Assembly: GCA_902511755.1 (NCBI GenBank)
Contig: CABXGL010000012.1
Location: 1-40,955 of the forward strand
DNA length: 40,955 bases
DNA from: an uncultured Bacteroidota bacterium
GTDB lineage: Bacteria; Bacteroidota; Bacteroidia; Flavobacteriales; Flavobacteriaceae
Reading direction: 5' to 3'
Shown here: positions 11,286-24,400 of the stretch, in pieces
Layout: each line of letters begins with the position of its first letter
Numbering within the stretch: position 1 is the stretch's first letter
Made by a program: the position numbers and the translations under genes
Notes under the pieces: generated by a model
Seen by the model: only the letters and a program-made list of their open reading frames with translations
What the model was told of the DNA's origin: nothing
Databases searched by the model: none

Positions 11286-12416
11286 ATGAAAAAAATCCAA
11301 ATGGTGGATTTACAAAGCCAGTATAAGCATATAAAGGATAAAATAGACAATTCAGTAATAAATGTAATTGAAGATGCAACTTTTATAAATGGGCCATCTG
11401 TAAAAAGTTTTCAGAAAAATTTAGAGGATTATTTAGATATAAAACATGTTATTCCTTGTGCCAATGGAACGGATGCTCTTCAAATAGCTATGATGGGATT
11501 AAATCTTAAACCTGGAGATGAGGTCATAACGGCAGATTTTACTTTTGCTTCTACTGTGGAGGTAATAGCATTATTAAACTTAACTCCTGTTTTAGTAGAT
11601 GTCGATTTAGAAACTTTTAATATTGACTGTAATAAGATTAAAAAAGCAATCACATCAAAAACAAAAGCAATAGTTCCTGTCCATTTATTTGGCCAACCTG
11701 CCAAAATGGAAGAGATAATGGAAATAGCTAATCAGAATAATCTTTTTGTTATTGAAGATAATGCTCAAGCAATTGGTTCAGAATACCAATTTTCATCAGG
11801 AAATAAAATAAAAGCAGGTACAATAGGAGATATTGGAACAACTTCTTTTTTCCCTTCTAAGAATTTAGGTTGTTATGGAGATGGTGGTGCATTATTTACA
11901 AACAATGATGATTTAGCTCATACAATTAGAGGAATAGTTAATCATGGGATGTACAAAAGGTACCATCATGATGTTGTTGGAGTTAATTCTAGATTAGATA
12001 GTATTCAAGCATCTATTTTAGATATTAAATTAAAGTTATTAGATAATTATAATTCAAGTAGAAATAAATCTGCAAGATTATATTCTGAAAATTTAAAAGG
12101 GAATCAAAATATAATTCTTCCTTCATTTAAAGCAGAAGAAAAATTTCATGTATTTCACCAATATACAATTCGAATTATAAATAATAAAAGAGATGATCTT
12201 GCAAACTATTTATCAGAATCTAATATTCCTTTTGGTATTTATTACCCTATACCTTTACATAGACAAAAAGCATATATAGACTCTAGATATAATGAAGATG
12301 ATTTTTTAAATACTAATTTATTAACTCAGCAAGTTATTTCACTTCCTATGCACTCTGAATTAGAACTGGATCAAATTAGATTTATTTGTGAAAAGATTAA
12401 TACATTTTTAAAATAG
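11286..12416 (+). CDS. DegT/DnrJ/EryC1/StrS-family sugar aminotransferase
   Basis: 376 residues, PLP-dependent aminotransferase of the DegT/ArnB type acting on keto-sugar nucleotides for surface polysaccharide or LPS. The N-terminus (KIQMVDLQSQYKHIK) is typical. PANGTDAL-type cofactor loop residues are present as CANGTDALQIA. The PLP-ring Asp is in VIEDNAQAIG (about 157-159), and the Schiff-base Lys is Lys192 in FFPSKNLGCYGDGG. The substrate cannot be told from sequence. The divergent waaA neighbour supports a role in LPS/O-antigen sugars. Its 3' end overlaps the convergent fabD by 9 bp. Confidence 0.9.
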   Translation: MKKIQMVDLQSQYKHIKDKIDNSVINVIEDATFINGPSVKSFQKNLEDYLDIKHVIPCANGTDALQIAMMGLNLKPGDEVITADFTFASTVEVIALLNLTPVLVDVDLETFNIDCNKIKKAITSKTKAIVPVHLFGQPAKMEEIMEIANQNNLFVIEDNAQAIGSEYQFSSGNKIKAGTIGDIGTTSFFPSKNLGCYGDGGALFTNNDDLAHTIRGIVNHGMYKRYHHDVVGVNSRLDSIQASILDIKLKLLDNYNSSRNKSARLYSENLKGNQNIILPSFKAEEKFHVFHQYTIRIINNKRDDLANYLSESNIPFGIYYPIPLHRQKAYIDSRYNEDDFLNTNLLTQQVISLPMHSELELDQIRFICEKINTFLK

Positions 12417-13289
12417 GGGGGCACTTACTACAGTATCTCTATTAATCTTTTTTATTAGCCCTTGAAGAACTTTTCCCGGACCAATTTCAATAAATTCTGT
12501 AGCACCATCTTCGATCATCTGATTTATACTTTGAGACCATTTTACTGGAGATGTTAACTGAGAAATTAAATTTTCTTTTATAGAAACAACAGAATTTTCC
12601 GCAATTCCCTTAACATTTTGATAAATAGGGCATATGGGATCATTGAATTTAGCTGTGTTAATTGCTTGAGATAGCTCTTCTTTAGCTTCGTTCATTAATT
12701 CAGAATGAAATGCGCCTCCGACAGGAAGAATTAATGCTCTTCTAGCACCTTTCTCTGTAAGAACTTTACAAGCTTTTTCAACAGCATCAAATTCTCCTGA
12801 AATTACAACTTGACCTGGACAGTTATAATTTGCTGAAACAACATTACCAATAATTTTTTGACATACATTTTCAATTATACTATTCTCAAGTCCAAGAATT
12901 GCTGCCATTGTTCCTTTTGTGTTTTCACATGCTCTTTGCATTGCTTTTGCCCTTATAGAAACAAGCTTTAAAGCATCTTCAAAGCTTAATACTCTTGCAG
13001 CAACTAGAGCAGAAAATTCACCAAGAGAATGACCAGCTACCATTGTTGGATTAAAAGATTTTTCTAGCACTTTTAATACTGCCATTGAATGAATAAAAAT
13101 TGCAGGTTGAGTTACTTTAGTTTGTGTTAAATCATCATTTGATCCATGAAACATTATTTTAGAAATATCAAATCCTAAAATATCTTCAGCATTTTGAAAC
13201 ATTTCCTTTAATGAATGGTGTTTCTTATAAAGATCATGACACATTCCAGTAAATTGTGAACCTTGACCAGGAAATACGTATGATTTCAT
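12408..13289 (-). CDS. fabD: malonyl CoA-ACP transacylase FabD
   Basis: 293 residues. FabD transfers malonyl from CoA to acyl carrier protein, opening fatty acid elongation. It shows FPGQGSQ at the N-terminus, the nucleophile elbow GHSLGE with Ser88, the Gln/Arg region (TQPAIFIHS; RAKAMQRACE) and the catalytic His in GGAFHSELM. The C-terminal FIEIGPGKVLQGL is characteristic. It lies 3 bp downstream of the DHFR fusion gene on the same strand and converges with the sugar aminotransferase. Confidence 0.94.
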   Translation of the reverse strand: MKSYVFPGQGSQFTGMCHDLYKKHHSLKEMFQNAEDILGFDISKIMFHGSNDDLTQTKVTQPAIFIHSMAVLKVLEKSFNPTMVAGHSLGEFSALVAARVLSFEDALKLVSIRAKAMQRACENTKGTMAAILGLENSIIENVCQKIIGNVVSANYNCPGQVVISGEFDAVEKACKVLTEKGARRALILPVGGAFHSELMNEAKEELSQAINTAKFNDPICPIYQNVKGIAENSVVSIKENLISQLTSPVKWSQSINQMIEDGATEFIEIGPGKVLQGLIKKINRDTVVSAPLF

Positions 13290-13292
13290 GTG

Positions 13293-14192
13293 TTATTTTT
13301 TATTATACCTTATAAAGGTGAAGTCAAATTTATGCTTATCATCTTTGAATCTTTCATTTCTACTAACTTCTTCCCATAATTTATAATCAATTTCAGGAAA
13401 ATAAGTATCCCCTGAAGAATCAGTATGGACCCTTGTTAATTCAATTCTATTGGCTAATAGTATACTTTGATTATATATTTCACCTCCACCTATAATAAAT
13501 GGTTGTTTATCATTAATTGACCTCTCTAGAGCTTCATGAATTGAGTTTACGACAATTGCATCTTTTGCTATATAATCTAATCTTCTTGTTATTACTATAT
13601 TGGTTCTATTAGGTAATGCTTTTGGCATAGATTCAAAGGTTTTTCTTCCCATAATAACACAGTGACCCTTAGTAAGTTCTTTAAAGTGTTTCAAATCATC
13701 AGGGAGATGCCAAATAAGTTTATTCTCATTTCCAATTACATTATTCTCTGAAGCTGCTGCAATTAAGGTAATACAATTACTAGAATTTTTTTCATTAAAT
13801 AATTGTGATTCAGCTTTGATTCTTGCCTCCTTTTCAAATTCTGTTTTTATTTTAGCAATTTTTAACTCTTGTTTAGAAACAAGTTTTTTTATTTGCTCTT
13901 TTTCCCAATTTCCCCCCATAAACCTATTTGTAATAAAAACATTATAGGTATGGATTAAGAATAATAAGATCCAAATGGCACTTGCAATAAATGACCAAGG
14001 ATAATTAAAAAAAATCAGTTCTTCTTTAAACCCAAATAATAAATTAACAGCAAGAAAAGATATGATTCCAAAAAACATTAATGAGAGATGAAAGAATAAC
14101 CTTTTCTTTTGCTTTACTCTTCTTTGAGCTGTCTTTATTAGATTGATTTGATCTTCGTTAATTTTGTCGCTACTTTTACCTTTGAATAACAT
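13293..14192 (-). CDS. folA: 2TM-domain / dihydrofolate reductase fusion
   Basis: About 299 residues from the ATG at 14190-14192. The longer frame from a TTG at 14216 is disfavoured because that TTG lies inside an exact promoter box (TACTTTTG, 14214-14221). Residues about 17-105 form a 2TM domain: a basic run (RRVKQKKR), then FFHLSLMFFGIISFLAVNL and FIASAIWILLFLIHTYNVF helices, then GGNWEKEQIKKLV. A charged, probably coiled linker (105-138) leads into complete DHFR (141-298). The DHFR shows ITLIAAASENNVIG, WHLPDDLKHF with Asp166 equivalent to E. coli Asp27, VIMGRKTFESMP, and IIGGGEIY. DHFR regenerates tetrahydrofolate after thymidylate synthesis. The fusion implies a membrane-tethered enzyme with the catalytic part in the cytoplasm. 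Usually the two domains are separate proteins, so a lost stop codon or indel should be kept in mind. Confidence 0.85.
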   Translation of the reverse strand: MLFKGKSSDKINEDQINLIKTAQRRVKQKKRLFFHLSLMFFGIISFLAVNLLFGFKEELIFFNYPWSFIASAIWILLFLIHTYNVFITNRFMGGNWEKEQIKKLVSKQELKIAKIKTEFEKEARIKAESQLFNEKNSSNCITLIAAASENNVIGNENKLIWHLPDDLKHFKELTKGHCVIMGRKTFESMPKALPNRTNIVITRRLDYIAKDAIVVNSIHEALERSINDKQPFIIGGGEIYNQSILLANRIELTRVHTDSSGDTYFPEIDYKLWEEVSRNERFKDDKHKFDFTFIRYNKK

Positions 14193-14213: not shown

Positions 14214-14221
14214 CAAAAGTA
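14214..14221 (-). promoter_or_regulatory. -7 promoter box of the 2TM-DHFR gene
   Basis: TACTTTTG on the minus strand, an exact TAnnTTTG match. It overlaps the upstream TTG of the longest frame and lies 21 bp before the ATG at 14192, which decides the start. Confidence 0.5.
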
Positions 14222-15300: not shown

Positions 15301-16008
15301 TTATTCAATTACTACAAAAGTAGACACTCCAGAATCAGATGTTGCACCATGATTATCTTTTGTAATTATTCTCCAATAGTATGTCCCTGTATCATTAATC
15401 GTAATGGTTTTTTTTGTGGCTGTATAATTTGAAACATTTACAGTGGTGGCATCTTTTTGGTCTAGATAAATATCAAATGTATGAGTATCTCCAGAATCTA
15501 CATCAGAAAAAGACCATGATAATTGAACCGCTCCTAAATTAACCGTTGCCCCAGGTTTAGGTGCAACAATTTCAGCTGGAAAAGGAGCATGATTCTTTTG
15601 AGGAGTTCCAGATAAATAAAATTTCCACTTTGCACTAGTTGCAGTAGCGGTACCAGTATTGGTAGAAATGACATACCATGAATAAGGGAATCCCTTTGTC
15701 AAAGTTATTTCAACACTTGTAGAAGTAGTTGTTTGTGAAATACTAGCTTGATTTAAAAGATTCTTTACAACAATTGTATATGAAGTCGTATCATCAGATT
15801 TATTCCATTCAAACTTAACAGCATCTACCTCAAGACATTCAGAATTATTTGCAGGTTTTGAAAGTGTAGCAGGCTTTGGAGCAACTGGACCTGTTGGATT
15901 TCCTCCTCCATTTCCTCCACCATTATTGCCATCATCTCCACCACTACCACCACAAGAAATAAAGAGGGGAAAAAATAAACACAATGATATGATTAATATC
16001 TTTTTCAT
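15301..16008 (-). CDS. lipoprotein with two FN3-like domains (copy B)
   Basis: 235 residues. The signal peptide MKKILIISLCLFFPLFIS is followed by the lipobox Cys. A flexible Gly/Asp/Asn-rich tether (CGGSGGDDGNNGGGNGGG) comes next, then two beta-sandwich units of about 90 residues. Each looks fibronectin-III-like: LSKPANNSECLEVDAVKFEW through WKFYLSG, then PFPAEIVAPKPGATVNLGAV through YYWRIITKDNHG. It overlaps the upstream T9SS gene by 4 bp (ATGA), indicating translational coupling. It is paralogous to the protein at 20362-21027, and the first 12 codons lie inside a 440-bp near-identical repeat. It is likely an outer-membrane lipoprotein acting with its T9SS partner; function unknown. Confidence 0.8.
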   Translation of the reverse strand: MKKILIISLCLFFPLFISCGGSGGDDGNNGGGNGGGNPTGPVAPKPATLSKPANNSECLEVDAVKFEWNKSDDTTSYTIVVKNLLNQASISQTTTSTSVEITLTKGFPYSWYVISTNTGTATATSAKWKFYLSGTPQKNHAPFPAEIVAPKPGATVNLGAVQLSWSFSDVDSGDTHTFDIYLDQKDATTVNVSNYTATKKTITINDTGTYYWRIITKDNHGATSDSGVSTFVVIE

Positions 16009-16411
16009 TCTCTAATTACTTTAATTGATTTTTTAATTGTTTTGGAATCTACTTTTAGAATATAAAGTCCAGATTTAACATCATTAAATGGCACATTCAG
16101 TGATCTTGAATATGGTACTTTATCGTTTCTAGTCCAGATAACTCTTCCTGTAATATCAAACAATGTAAGATTTACATTATCATCAAATCCACCTACCCAT
16201 AATTTAGAAGAAGCATTAGCTGGGTTAGGACTTAATAGAATATCTTCAGATATAAAGATTATTTCTTCATAAATTCCTTGGCATTCTTTGTTGGCAGTTA
16301 CTCTAATGGTATTAATACCAGGGCTTAATGATAGATCTATATTATCATCATAAGTTGTAATTAAGTTTCCGTTAAGTAAGATATTATATTTAGTTCCTCC
16401 ACTCATGTCTA
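15972..16411. repeat. 440-bp direct repeat, copy 1
   Basis: Read base by base against 20991-21430 (offset 5019). I find a single mismatch, at 16392 (a versus g). It covers the last ~135 codons of the T9SS protein, the ATGA junction and the first 12 codons of the lipoprotein gene. Identity stops sharply at both ends. Confidence 0.9.
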
Positions 16412-20361: not shown

Positions 20362-21027
20362 CTATTGAACAGTAAATTTATAGATTCCAGACTCGGAATG
20401 ATTTCCATTATTATCTTTTGCTACAATTCTCCAATAATAAACCCCAGCTGTGAGTGAAACGGTTTTAGTTGTAGCTGACTGATCAGCACTTATTATAGTC
20501 GTAGCATTTGTTTTATCTAATTTGACATCAAACTTATGCGTGTCTCCAACATCAACATCTGAAACCTTCCAAGAAAGTTCAATAGATTCAGCTGAGACTG
20601 TAGTTCCGTTTTTAGGAGCAATTATTTCAGCTGGAAATGGAGCATGATTAGAATCTGCAGCACCAGATAAATAAAATTTCCAAACTTCAGATTTTGCCGT
20701 TTTTGAAGTAGTCTTATTTTTTGAAGTAATTTGCCATGAATAAGGCCTCCCCTTAGGCAACGTAATTTCTACTGTATTAGTACTAGTGTTTTGTGTTACC
20801 GTTTTACTAGAAATCAAATCAATAATAGTAATTGTATAGGTGTCAGTATTGTCAGATTTATTCCATTCGAACTTAACTTTATCAACCTCTAAACATTGTG
20901 AATTGTTTGCTGGTTTAGAAAGGCTTGCAGATGCAGGATCTACTGGAGCCCTAAACTCATAAGTTTTAGAACATGAAATGGTTATCATAGAAAATAAACA
21001 CAATGATATGATTAATATCTTTTTCAT
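20362..21027 (-). CDS. lipoprotein with two FN3-like domains (copy A)
   Basis: 221 residues, paralogue of the 15301-16008 protein. The signal peptide MKKILIISLCLFSMITIS ends at the lipobox Cys. The mature N-terminus is short (CSKTYEFRAPVD) and lacks the Gly/Asp-rich tether of copy B. Two FN3-like units follow (LSKPANNSQCLEVDKVKFEW to WKFYLSG; PFPAEIIAPKNGTTV to YYWRIVAKDNNG). It overlaps the upstream T9SS gene by 4 bp, exactly as in the other copy, so the two-gene unit duplicated as a unit. Judged by eye, the mature parts are clearly homologous but well diverged, while the first 12 codons are identical. Confidence 0.8.
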   Translation of the reverse strand: MKKILIISLCLFSMITISCSKTYEFRAPVDPASASLSKPANNSQCLEVDKVKFEWNKSDNTDTYTITIIDLISSKTVTQNTSTNTVEITLPKGRPYSWQITSKNKTTSKTAKSEVWKFYLSGAADSNHAPFPAEIIAPKNGTTVSAESIELSWKVSDVDVGDTHKFDVKLDKTNATTIISADQSATTKTVSLTAGVYYWRIVAKDNNGNHSESGIYKFTVQ

Positions 21028-21430
21028 TCTCTAATTACTTTAATTGATTTTTTAATTGTTTTGGAATCTACTTTTAGAATATAAAGTCCAGATTTAACAT
21101 CATTAAATGGCACATTCAGTGATCTTGAATATGGTACTTTATCGTTTCTAGTCCAGATAACTCTTCCTGTAATATCAAACAATGTAAGATTTACATTATC
21201 ATCAAATCCACCTACCCATAATTTAGAAGAAGCATTAGCTGGGTTAGGACTTAATAGAATATCTTCAGATATAAAGATTATTTCTTCATAAATTCCTTGG
21301 CATTCTTTGTTGGCAGTTACTCTAATGGTATTAATACCAGGGCTTAATGATAGATCTATATTATCATCATAAGTTGTAATTAAGTTTCCGTTAAGTAAGA
21401 TATTATATTTGGTTCCTCCACTCATGTCTA
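20991..21430. repeat. 440-bp direct repeat, copy 2
   Basis: Partner of 15972-16411. It spans the same features (C-terminal sorting domain, ATGA junction, start of the lipoprotein signal peptide), with one mismatch at 21411. Confidence 0.9.
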
Positions 21431-24400
21431 GGACAATTTGGTTTTTATCTCTATCAATATTGGAAACTACACCTAAATCTGCTGGCTCTTTTATATTAGC
21501 ATTAAAACATTGGTTTAAAGTTGAAAAAGCAGTTGAAGTAATACAAACCCAATAGTTACCAGCTTTTAAATTATTTAATGACCATGTTGAACTTGAAATA
21601 TTTTCTGGAGTATGACTAAATCCAGTAGGACCTCCAGTAATCTTTATATTAAAAGGCTGACTAAATTCTCCTTTAATTGTTAATTGAATACTTCCATTAT
21701 CAGAACTTTTACACGTTTCATCAGATGCTTTTAAAGAAAATGTATCTTTAGGAACTGGGTTTGGATCACAAACATCTCCTTGACCATCACCATCAAAATC
21801 TTTTTGATCAGTATTTGCATTATAAGGACAATTATCACTTGCATTTAAAATAGTATCTCCATCAATATCATCATCACAAGCATCTCCTTTGCCGTCTCCA
21901 TCAATATCCGATTGATTTGCATTAGCATTGATTGGGCAATTATCGACATCGTTATTAATTCCATCTCCATCCTTATCGTCATCACAAACATCTCCCTTTC
22001 CATCCCCATCTAAATCTGCTTGATCCGTATTAACAATTGATGGGCAGTTGTCATTAACATTTAAAATAGTGTCTCCATCTTTATCGTCGTCACAAACATC
22101 TCCTATTCCATCACCATCCATATCCGCTTGATCCGTATTTGCTTTGTTAGGGCAGTTGTCACTTGCGTTTAAAATAGTATCTCCATCAATATCATCATCA
22201 CAGACATCTCCTTTACCATCCCCATCTGTGTCTTTTTGATCGGCATTTGCAGTATTTACACAGTTATCTGTATCATCAAAAACTCCATCCGCATCAGAAT
22301 CATCACAAACATCACCAACTCCATCTCCATCTGTATCCTTTTGATCAGCATTAGCTTTATTAGGACAGTTGTCATCATCATTTAAAATTCCATCCCCATC
22401 TAAATCATTTGAATTATTTGCTATTACTGTTAATACAACTCCAACTGTATCTAGTGTTACAGAAGATGATCCATCAGTTGCATCTATTACTAAGTTGTAT
22501 GTTTTAACATCAGCATCAGAGGGCACATCTATTTTAATAGTCACCTCCCCATTTGCATCAATTGTACTGTTGTTTGCTGGGGTGTAGGTATAAGTTGCTC
22601 CACTTGGTCCACCACTTACTGTAAATGTGGTTTGTTTATTGTATCCTCCTAAAACTTTATATTTAATTTTAAATGTACCAGATTCATTTTGTTTTACAGA
22701 AAGAGTACTGGGAACGGCATCTTCTAAAAATAATTTTGGGGTATCAGAATCAAATTTGGATGAAAAAATACCTCTACCATAGGTTCCTGCAAAAACCTTA
22801 AAATCATCTCTCATATCTAAATCAGTAACTCTAACATTACTCATCCCATTGTAAGATTGAGACCAATTTGGCGAGCTATCACTAAAGTTTTTTGTATGCC
22901 AAACTCCTAAATCAGTTCCAATAATTACCTCTTTAGGATCAATAGGATTTTGAAGAATACATCTTACAGGAATATTAGGAAGGTCACCATCTTTTTTGGA
23001 CCATGAAGAACCTCCATCGGAAGAATAAAAAACATTATTGACACCGTAGTTGTGCATGGTTACGAAAATTTCATTTGCAGTTTTTCCAAATTCAATATCC
23101 GATACACTACCAACAAATTCAGAACCAGTAATTTTAGTCCATGTTATATCTCCTGCTACGTTAACTCGTAATAAATTTCCATCTTCAAGACCTACCATTA
23201 AAATGGAAGTACTAGTTGTTCCAAAAGGTGAAACAGTTAATGCAGAAACATTACCAGTTAATAATGCATTTGTAAGTATAGTTTTTTTAGGACCAAAATC
23301 AGAAAAATCATCCCAATCATTGTAAAGGGCAATTTGATTAGTCCCGCCACTTCGGTAATTTGAATAAAGGTAGCCTTTCTTTGAATCTAAAGCTTGGGTA
23401 GTTATAAAATCTCCATTACTGGTATCTTCATCATTAATTGTTCTTCTAGTATTGTTACTAAAATCCCATACATCTACAGCTTGATTGTAAACATAATTTG
23501 TAATGAAATAAGGATTTGAATTATCTTGAGAAAACATAGATGCAGCTCCATCTCCTCCAGAAGCCATGGTAGCTTTACTAATTGCATCATTATTATTTGC
23601 GATCAATTGACTTCCATTGTCTTGTAAACCACTAATAACAACATCAGTCATTCCACTAATTGGTAGAGGATAAAAAGCATATGAACTTATGTCATAACCA
23701 GAAACAGTTTTATTTAAATCTTTAAACATTTCCGAGGGAGCAACACCAATAGTATACATTTGAGATGTATTTAAGTTGTTGTTTCTAGAAGATGCTGTTT
23801 CAGTTCCAGATTCAGTTTTAGAATAATATATACCTCCGTCATTACCAAACAATTTTTTTGAAGAATCCGTATTTCCAAAAACCATACTATGTTGATCAGC
23901 ATGGATATATTGATGTGTGAACCCTCCATACCAATGAGATATTTGTGTCCAAGGATTAACATTTGGATCAGAATTTTCACCTCCAGTAGTAGATTTAAAT
24001 ATATCAATTCCTCCTATATATATGTGTTCAGGGTTATTAGGATCTGAATCTAGCATCAAATCATAGAAAGATTGTCCTCTAGTGAAATCATCCGCACTAA
24101 TTCCACCATCTGCATCATCAGGTAAGGTAAGCTCTGTTGGAGTAGTAGCAAAAAAATCTGTTGATTTATATACTTTAGGTTTATTATTAACTTGTACTAA
24201 GACATAAATTTTACCATTTGAAGTAACTTCCATTTCTGTTCTTCTACCATTAGTCACTTCATGTTTTACATCAAAAGATGTGACATCAGCATTAGACTTT
24301 AGAATTGTTCCTCCAGTTCCATAGGCTCTTTTAGTTGTACAAGCCCAAATTAAATTGTCACCATCAATTTCTAAATCTATCACTTCATATGTTTGACCAT

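Follow-up and report, generated by a model that had tools for sequence, protein, structure and literature searches.

A dihydrofolate reductase joined to a two-helix membrane domain in Flavobacteriaceae: a candidate membrane-tethered form of a housekeeping enzyme

Dihydrofolate reductase (DHFR) serves as the model of a soluble enzyme and is an important drug target. The thymidylate synthase ThyA produces dihydrofolate, from which DHFR regenerates tetrahydrofolate. In protozoa and plants, DHFR and thymidylate synthase form one bifunctional protein, and the enzymes of mitochondrial thymidylate synthesis have been reported at the inner membrane; to our knowledge, the DHFR of that mitochondrial system carries no covalent membrane domain. 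The flavobacterial gene described here resembles the bifunctional enzyme in that DHFR is joined to a partner with a tie to thymidylate synthesis, but the partner is a membrane domain and ThyA is a separate protein. With the mitochondrial enzymes it has in common the idea of dihydrofolate recycling located at a membrane. Compared with FolA (DHFR_1, PF00186), it retains the whole domain, the catalytic and cofactor residues, the status of sole copy and the clustering with thyA, whereas the fusion protein adds an N-terminal two-helix membrane domain and a linker. That added part belongs to the 2TM proteins (PF13239), which occur alone or on proteins of histidine-kinase size (about 450 residues) and share a two-helix domain with an H, W, H, W-E pattern; the folA-linked members differ by K29, L104, Q108 and I112, and by the DHFR behind them.

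The gene lies in a stretch of 40,955 nucleotides (hereafter the window, meaning the whole stretch that was analysed) from an uncultured member of the Flavobacteriaceae, whose genome is a draft MAG of 1.41 Mb in 57 contigs with 68% completeness. The relevant features are the following:

13293 to 14192, minus strand: 2TM-DHFR fusion gene, a single open frame of 299 residues; ATG start at 14192, stop codon ending at 13293
13878 to 14132, minus strand: 2TM domain, residues 21-105, with two hydrophobic helices and conserved H35, W66, H81, W96 and E97 (Pfam and alignments)
13776 to 13877, minus strand: charged stalk and linker, residues 106-139, opening with the conserved Q108 and I112, then variable in sequence and length; no standard in-frame start codon
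13299 to 13772, minus strand: DHFR_1 domain, residues 141-298, with an intact set of catalytic residues (Pfam and alignment)
14214 to 14221, minus strand: TACTTTTG, putative -7 promoter box, located 22 to 29 bases ahead of the ATG (read by eye)
12408 to 13289, minus strand: fabD-like acyl transferase (Acyl_transf_1), whose frame begins 3 bases beyond the DHFR stop codon
25327 to 26151, minus strand: thyA, the sole thymidylate synthase found in the genome, about 11 kb upstream of the fusion gene

An initial annotation of this DNA had described one frame joining a 2TM domain, a charged linker and a DHFR with its key aspartate, both domains appearing intact. The Pfam matches bear this out, as do the end points given for the gene. 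The 2TM match scores 57.5 bits (cut-off 24.8) and spans profile positions 2-78 of 79; the DHFR_1 match scores 200.3 bits (cut-off 25) and is complete (positions 2-159 of 159). By eye, and in E. coli numbering, W22, D27, F31, R44, R57 and T113 of the E. coli enzyme presumably correspond to W161, D166, F170, R183, R196 and T253 here, all six of which are invariant in an alignment of 25 sequences (the copies from L001 and L002, and L009, which is cut by a contig end, were left out). The protein departs from the usual soluble single-domain form (about 160 residues, which is no strict criterion) by its 299 residues, its 2TM part and the lack of an internal standard start. An acquired trimethoprim-resistance Dfr gene was considered and rejected, the best NCBIfam score being 130.5 bits against a cut-off of 300.

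Hydropathy windows place two hydrophobic stretches in the 2TM part with basic ends on either side: lysine and arginine number 10 in residues 1-34 and 11 in residues 91-139, with a single one in the loop. The positive-inside rule would accordingly predict an N-in/C-in topology for this hairpin. The best PDB match of the DHFR part is 8f09_A, and the solved DHFR chains listed cover residues 137-299 only. A profile search of the 2TM part against solved structures gave KwaA as its best match, at a non-significant 15 bits (E 0.18). The AlphaFold2 model, built from five sequences, has a mean pLDDT of 53.9 and a pTM of 0.38, with low-confidence helices at 13-55 and 65-92; it is too poor to use, so structure lends the membrane reading little support.

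One DHFR_1 and one 2TM were found in the window's draft genome, both within the fusion gene, and the same holds for G004, a genome of the same genus with 93% completeness. Among 67 family genomes with the fused form, 66 have a single DHFR_1 match, the exception being a weak partial second match (31.7 bits) in G109. A bypass by a second DHFR_1 or by ThyX was not found in 12 fused genomes, namely the window's own, G004 and ten that are single contigs: each has one ThyA, and none has a ThyX. With a sole fused DHFR_1, a single ThyA that makes dihydrofolate and no ThyX, these cells should need the fused DHFR.

As for the surroundings, the fabD-like gene is probably co-transcribed with the fusion gene and is also kept downstream in four relatives (L038-L041). 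The fusion gene is separated from thyA by an aminotransferase-V gene together with the genes of two large proteins that carry secretion-tail domains. The distance to thyA is about 6 kb in G004, and thyA is close to the 2TM/DHFR pair in many relatives (126 bases between frames in G043). The large secretion-tail genes (1419 and 1426 residues) are related, and their 3' ends, together with the starts of the lipoprotein-like genes that follow, are spanned by a 300-base stretch present in two fully identical copies (15972-16271 and 20991-21290), which could stem from a recent event of gene conversion or duplication, or else from the assembly. Four tandem repeats of thrombospondin-3 type, spaced by 108 bases, lie at 21766-22305 within the larger secreted protein. 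Elsewhere in the window, a gene at 1474-2743 on the plus strand, which we take to be of the CNNM/CBS transporter type, looks broken: a stop closes the frame 1474-1818, and the rest lies in another frame (2033-2743), as if frameshifted.

The fusion extends well beyond this genome. A search with the single protein returned 57 candidate stretches, four of which were confirmed as relatives in a species-level collection; all four are fused, with 92, 92, 79 and 57% identity. The initial annotation had proposed comparing fused and adjacent genes across flavobacterial genomes. In a sample of 149 genomes of the family, from 148 genera, DHFR_1 was found in 146 and a 2TM somewhere in 130. Among the 146 DHFR-bearing genomes, 67 have the two fused, in another 56 a folA-type 2TM frame immediately precedes DHFR on the same strand, and 23 have neither arrangement; the folA-type 2TM is thus fused or adjacent in 123/146. 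Tethering had at first been called unexpected: the sequence does encode a predicted inner-membrane tether for a complete DHFR, but with 67 fusions and 56 unfused pairs the arrangement is no rarity in this family. Of the 23 remaining genomes, 17 have no 2TM anywhere; these measure 1.3-2.7 Mb, so the 2TM appears to have been lost from small genomes. The window's genome, also small, retains it, in fused form. Outside the family, no uninterrupted full-length fusion was seen among the matches listed for a phylum sample (247 genomes, 27 of them from the family) or for an order sample (196 genomes, 30 from the family), and none of 20 outgroup loci from other families has a 2TM near DHFR. Several of these loci have thyA just upstream of folA, and the simplest history is that the 2TM gene arrived between the two early in the family.

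The 2TM domains linked to folA form a subfamily of their own. In a tree of 41 of the 123 folA-linked domains and 20 from histidine-kinase clusters, the two sets fall on opposite sides of a branch with an SH-aLRT of 100 and do not group together. Such clusters, as seen at L033-L037, consist of several stand-alone 2TM genes (about 100-130 residues) adjoining a 2TM protein of about 450 residues, of histidine-kinase size and presumably such a kinase; they are widespread in the family. H35, W66, H81 and W96 are present in 100% of both the 67 fused and the 56 adjacent 2TMs, while the 20 kinase-cluster domains share them in part (H35 50%, W66 75%, H81 85%). Four further positions set the folA-linked type apart: K29 (100% fused, 94% adjacent; isoleucine in 65% of the kinase-cluster set), L104 (98% and 100%; leucine in 30%), Q108 (97% and 92%; D or E in 75%) and I112 (94% and 82%; a gap in all 20). 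This equal conservation says that the 2TM probably has one and the same role in both states, and that it would be more than a greasy tail; as fused and separate domains share it, it also suggests that the covalent tether may not itself be essential. Against L038, L039 and L040, dN/dS is 0.149, 0.065 and 0.137 for the 2TM, 0.129, 0 and 0.147 for the linker, and 0.068, 0.077 and 0.045 for the DHFR, with synonymous sites near saturation in the comparison to L040. The 2TM value exceeds that of DHFR in two of the three comparisons; the ratios show purifying selection on either domain.

We propose, with a probability of roughly 0.6, that the gene encodes a housekeeping DHFR tethered to the inner membrane and facing the cytoplasm, with the 2TM as its dedicated partner. 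The 2TM part would insert as a hairpin of helices whose two ends lie in the cytoplasm, and the charged stalk with its flexible linker (about 30 residues) would hold a complete, presumably catalytically competent DHFR at the cytoplasmic face, where it would regenerate tetrahydrofolate from the dihydrofolate made by ThyA. As a dedicated partner, the 2TM would provide docking and probably act as a regulatory or oligomerising subunit. Having apparently joined the ancestral thyA-folA cluster early in the family, it would work either fused or as a separate subunit from a tightly packed upstream gene, possibly in physical contact with DHFR in unfused species, and lineages have moved between the two states several times. 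The pairing of 2TM with folA looks deliberate, and we infer that the tether matters for DHFR; separate genes in 56/146 genomes and the lack of a 2TM at the locus in 23/146 mean that it is dispensable in those lineages.

The main rival supposes that neighbours in a tight operon were joined repeatedly by the loss of a single stop codon, without benefit, the 2TM having an unrelated membrane job and DHFR tolerating the tail. Adjacent 2TM and folA frames usually overlap or nearly touch, and 6 of the 56 such pairs share a reading frame, five of them with one stop between. Several species of genus g127 (L165-L169, from G313, G214, G364, G348 and G127) read 2TM-TAG-DHFR in one frame, with four codons between the TAG and the DHFR ATG and a TAA as well in G127, so that the fused and split states stand one codon apart. 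The persistence of both states, with a 2TM equally conserved in each, is likewise what neutral joining would predict. A rooted tree of 164 sequences (leaving out the long-branched G016 and G128) requires no fewer than 6 transitions between the fused and the adjacent state. Six fused sequences are scattered in it outside one clade (SH-aLRT 89) that unites 61 fused members and 4 without a 2TM. Forcing all fused sequences into one clade, in a set of 61 of the 123 (27 fused, 34 adjacent, the scattered fused ones retained), costs 152 log-likelihood units under a mixture model. A single ancestral fusion is therefore rejected (p-AU 4.9e-6, on a weakly resolved gene tree), so fusion and/or fission happened repeatedly, in a direction that the weakly resolved tree of one short gene does not give. 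What neutrality does not lead one to expect is a 2TM subfamily specific to folA, nor an adjacency kept across most of the family while the neighbours thyA, nupC and fabD vary; none of the 61 fused members of the large clade has been re-split. On balance we find neutral joining rather unlikely.

A second alternative grants the membrane location and makes the 2TM a sensor that regulates DHFR in response to membrane state, quinone, haem or metal, beyond serving as an anchor. H35, H81 and W66 lie in or next to the hydrophobic helices and are invariant in 123/123 folA-linked 2TMs, which exceeds what an anchor needs, and 2TM relatives sit on proteins that are presumably histidine kinases. However, the same three residues recur in part in other 2TMs and may be structural, and the 2TM has no significant solved relative; we give a sensor role little credence.

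It could also be argued that the fused product is cut, or that DHFR begins within the linker, which would leave a soluble active enzyme and a separate 2TM product. The linker is variable and likely flexible, and it contains an ATG, GTG or TTG in 36 of the 67 fused genes (ATG in 12). The remaining 31 fused genes, the window's among them, have no start-like codon in the linker, and no protease site is known to us. Between codons 92 and 167 of the window gene there is no in-frame ATG, GTG or TTG, which means that a free DHFR cannot start there at a standard codon; short of cleavage or of initiation at a non-standard codon, the window's DHFR would hence come only as part of a membrane protein. At the other end of the frame, a TTG at 14216 is less likely as start than the ATG at 14192, since the promoter-like box, by eye, overlaps that TTG. 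The box fits the Bacteroidota -7 consensus (TAnnTTTG), and a consensus promoter scan did no better than shuffled sequences (13 found against 12.0). We regard a soluble product as improbable and retain the membrane-tethered DHFR as the preferred reading.

An assembly or frameshift artefact, conceivable in a draft of 57 contigs with another gene that looks frameshifted, is extremely improbable and was rejected, given that the assembled linker has neither the stop nor the indel named at the outset as grounds for doubt, that the close relatives share the fused state, and that the fusion recurs in four named relatives assembled independently, as well as in ten genomes that are single contigs.

Both halves of the protein are named by Pfam models, and entries of this kind very probably stand in protein databases already, as dihydrofolate reductase. 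What seems new is an ordinary enzyme in an uncommon, family-wide membrane architecture, apparently undescribed as far as the literature records covered go. Within those records, no paper was found on 2TM-DHFR, on DHFR as membrane-bound in those words, or on PF13239, and papers naming a "2TM domain-containing protein" concern other subjects, judging by titles and the openings of abstracts.

We speculate further, and hold it to be doubtful, that DHFR is a two-subunit, membrane-seated enzyme in this large family, in which the folA-specific 2TM, repeatedly fused to the catalytic subunit, serves for sensing or for docking in a metabolon and thereby makes the recycling of folate and the supply of thymidylate depend on the state of the inner membrane. 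If the 2TM is indeed a partner-specific membrane subunit, the level, lifetime or cellular location of DHFR would be controlled at the membrane in these bacteria. Since fused-form and separate-form species are neighbours in the tree, the effect of membrane seating on an enzyme of central metabolism would be directly testable.
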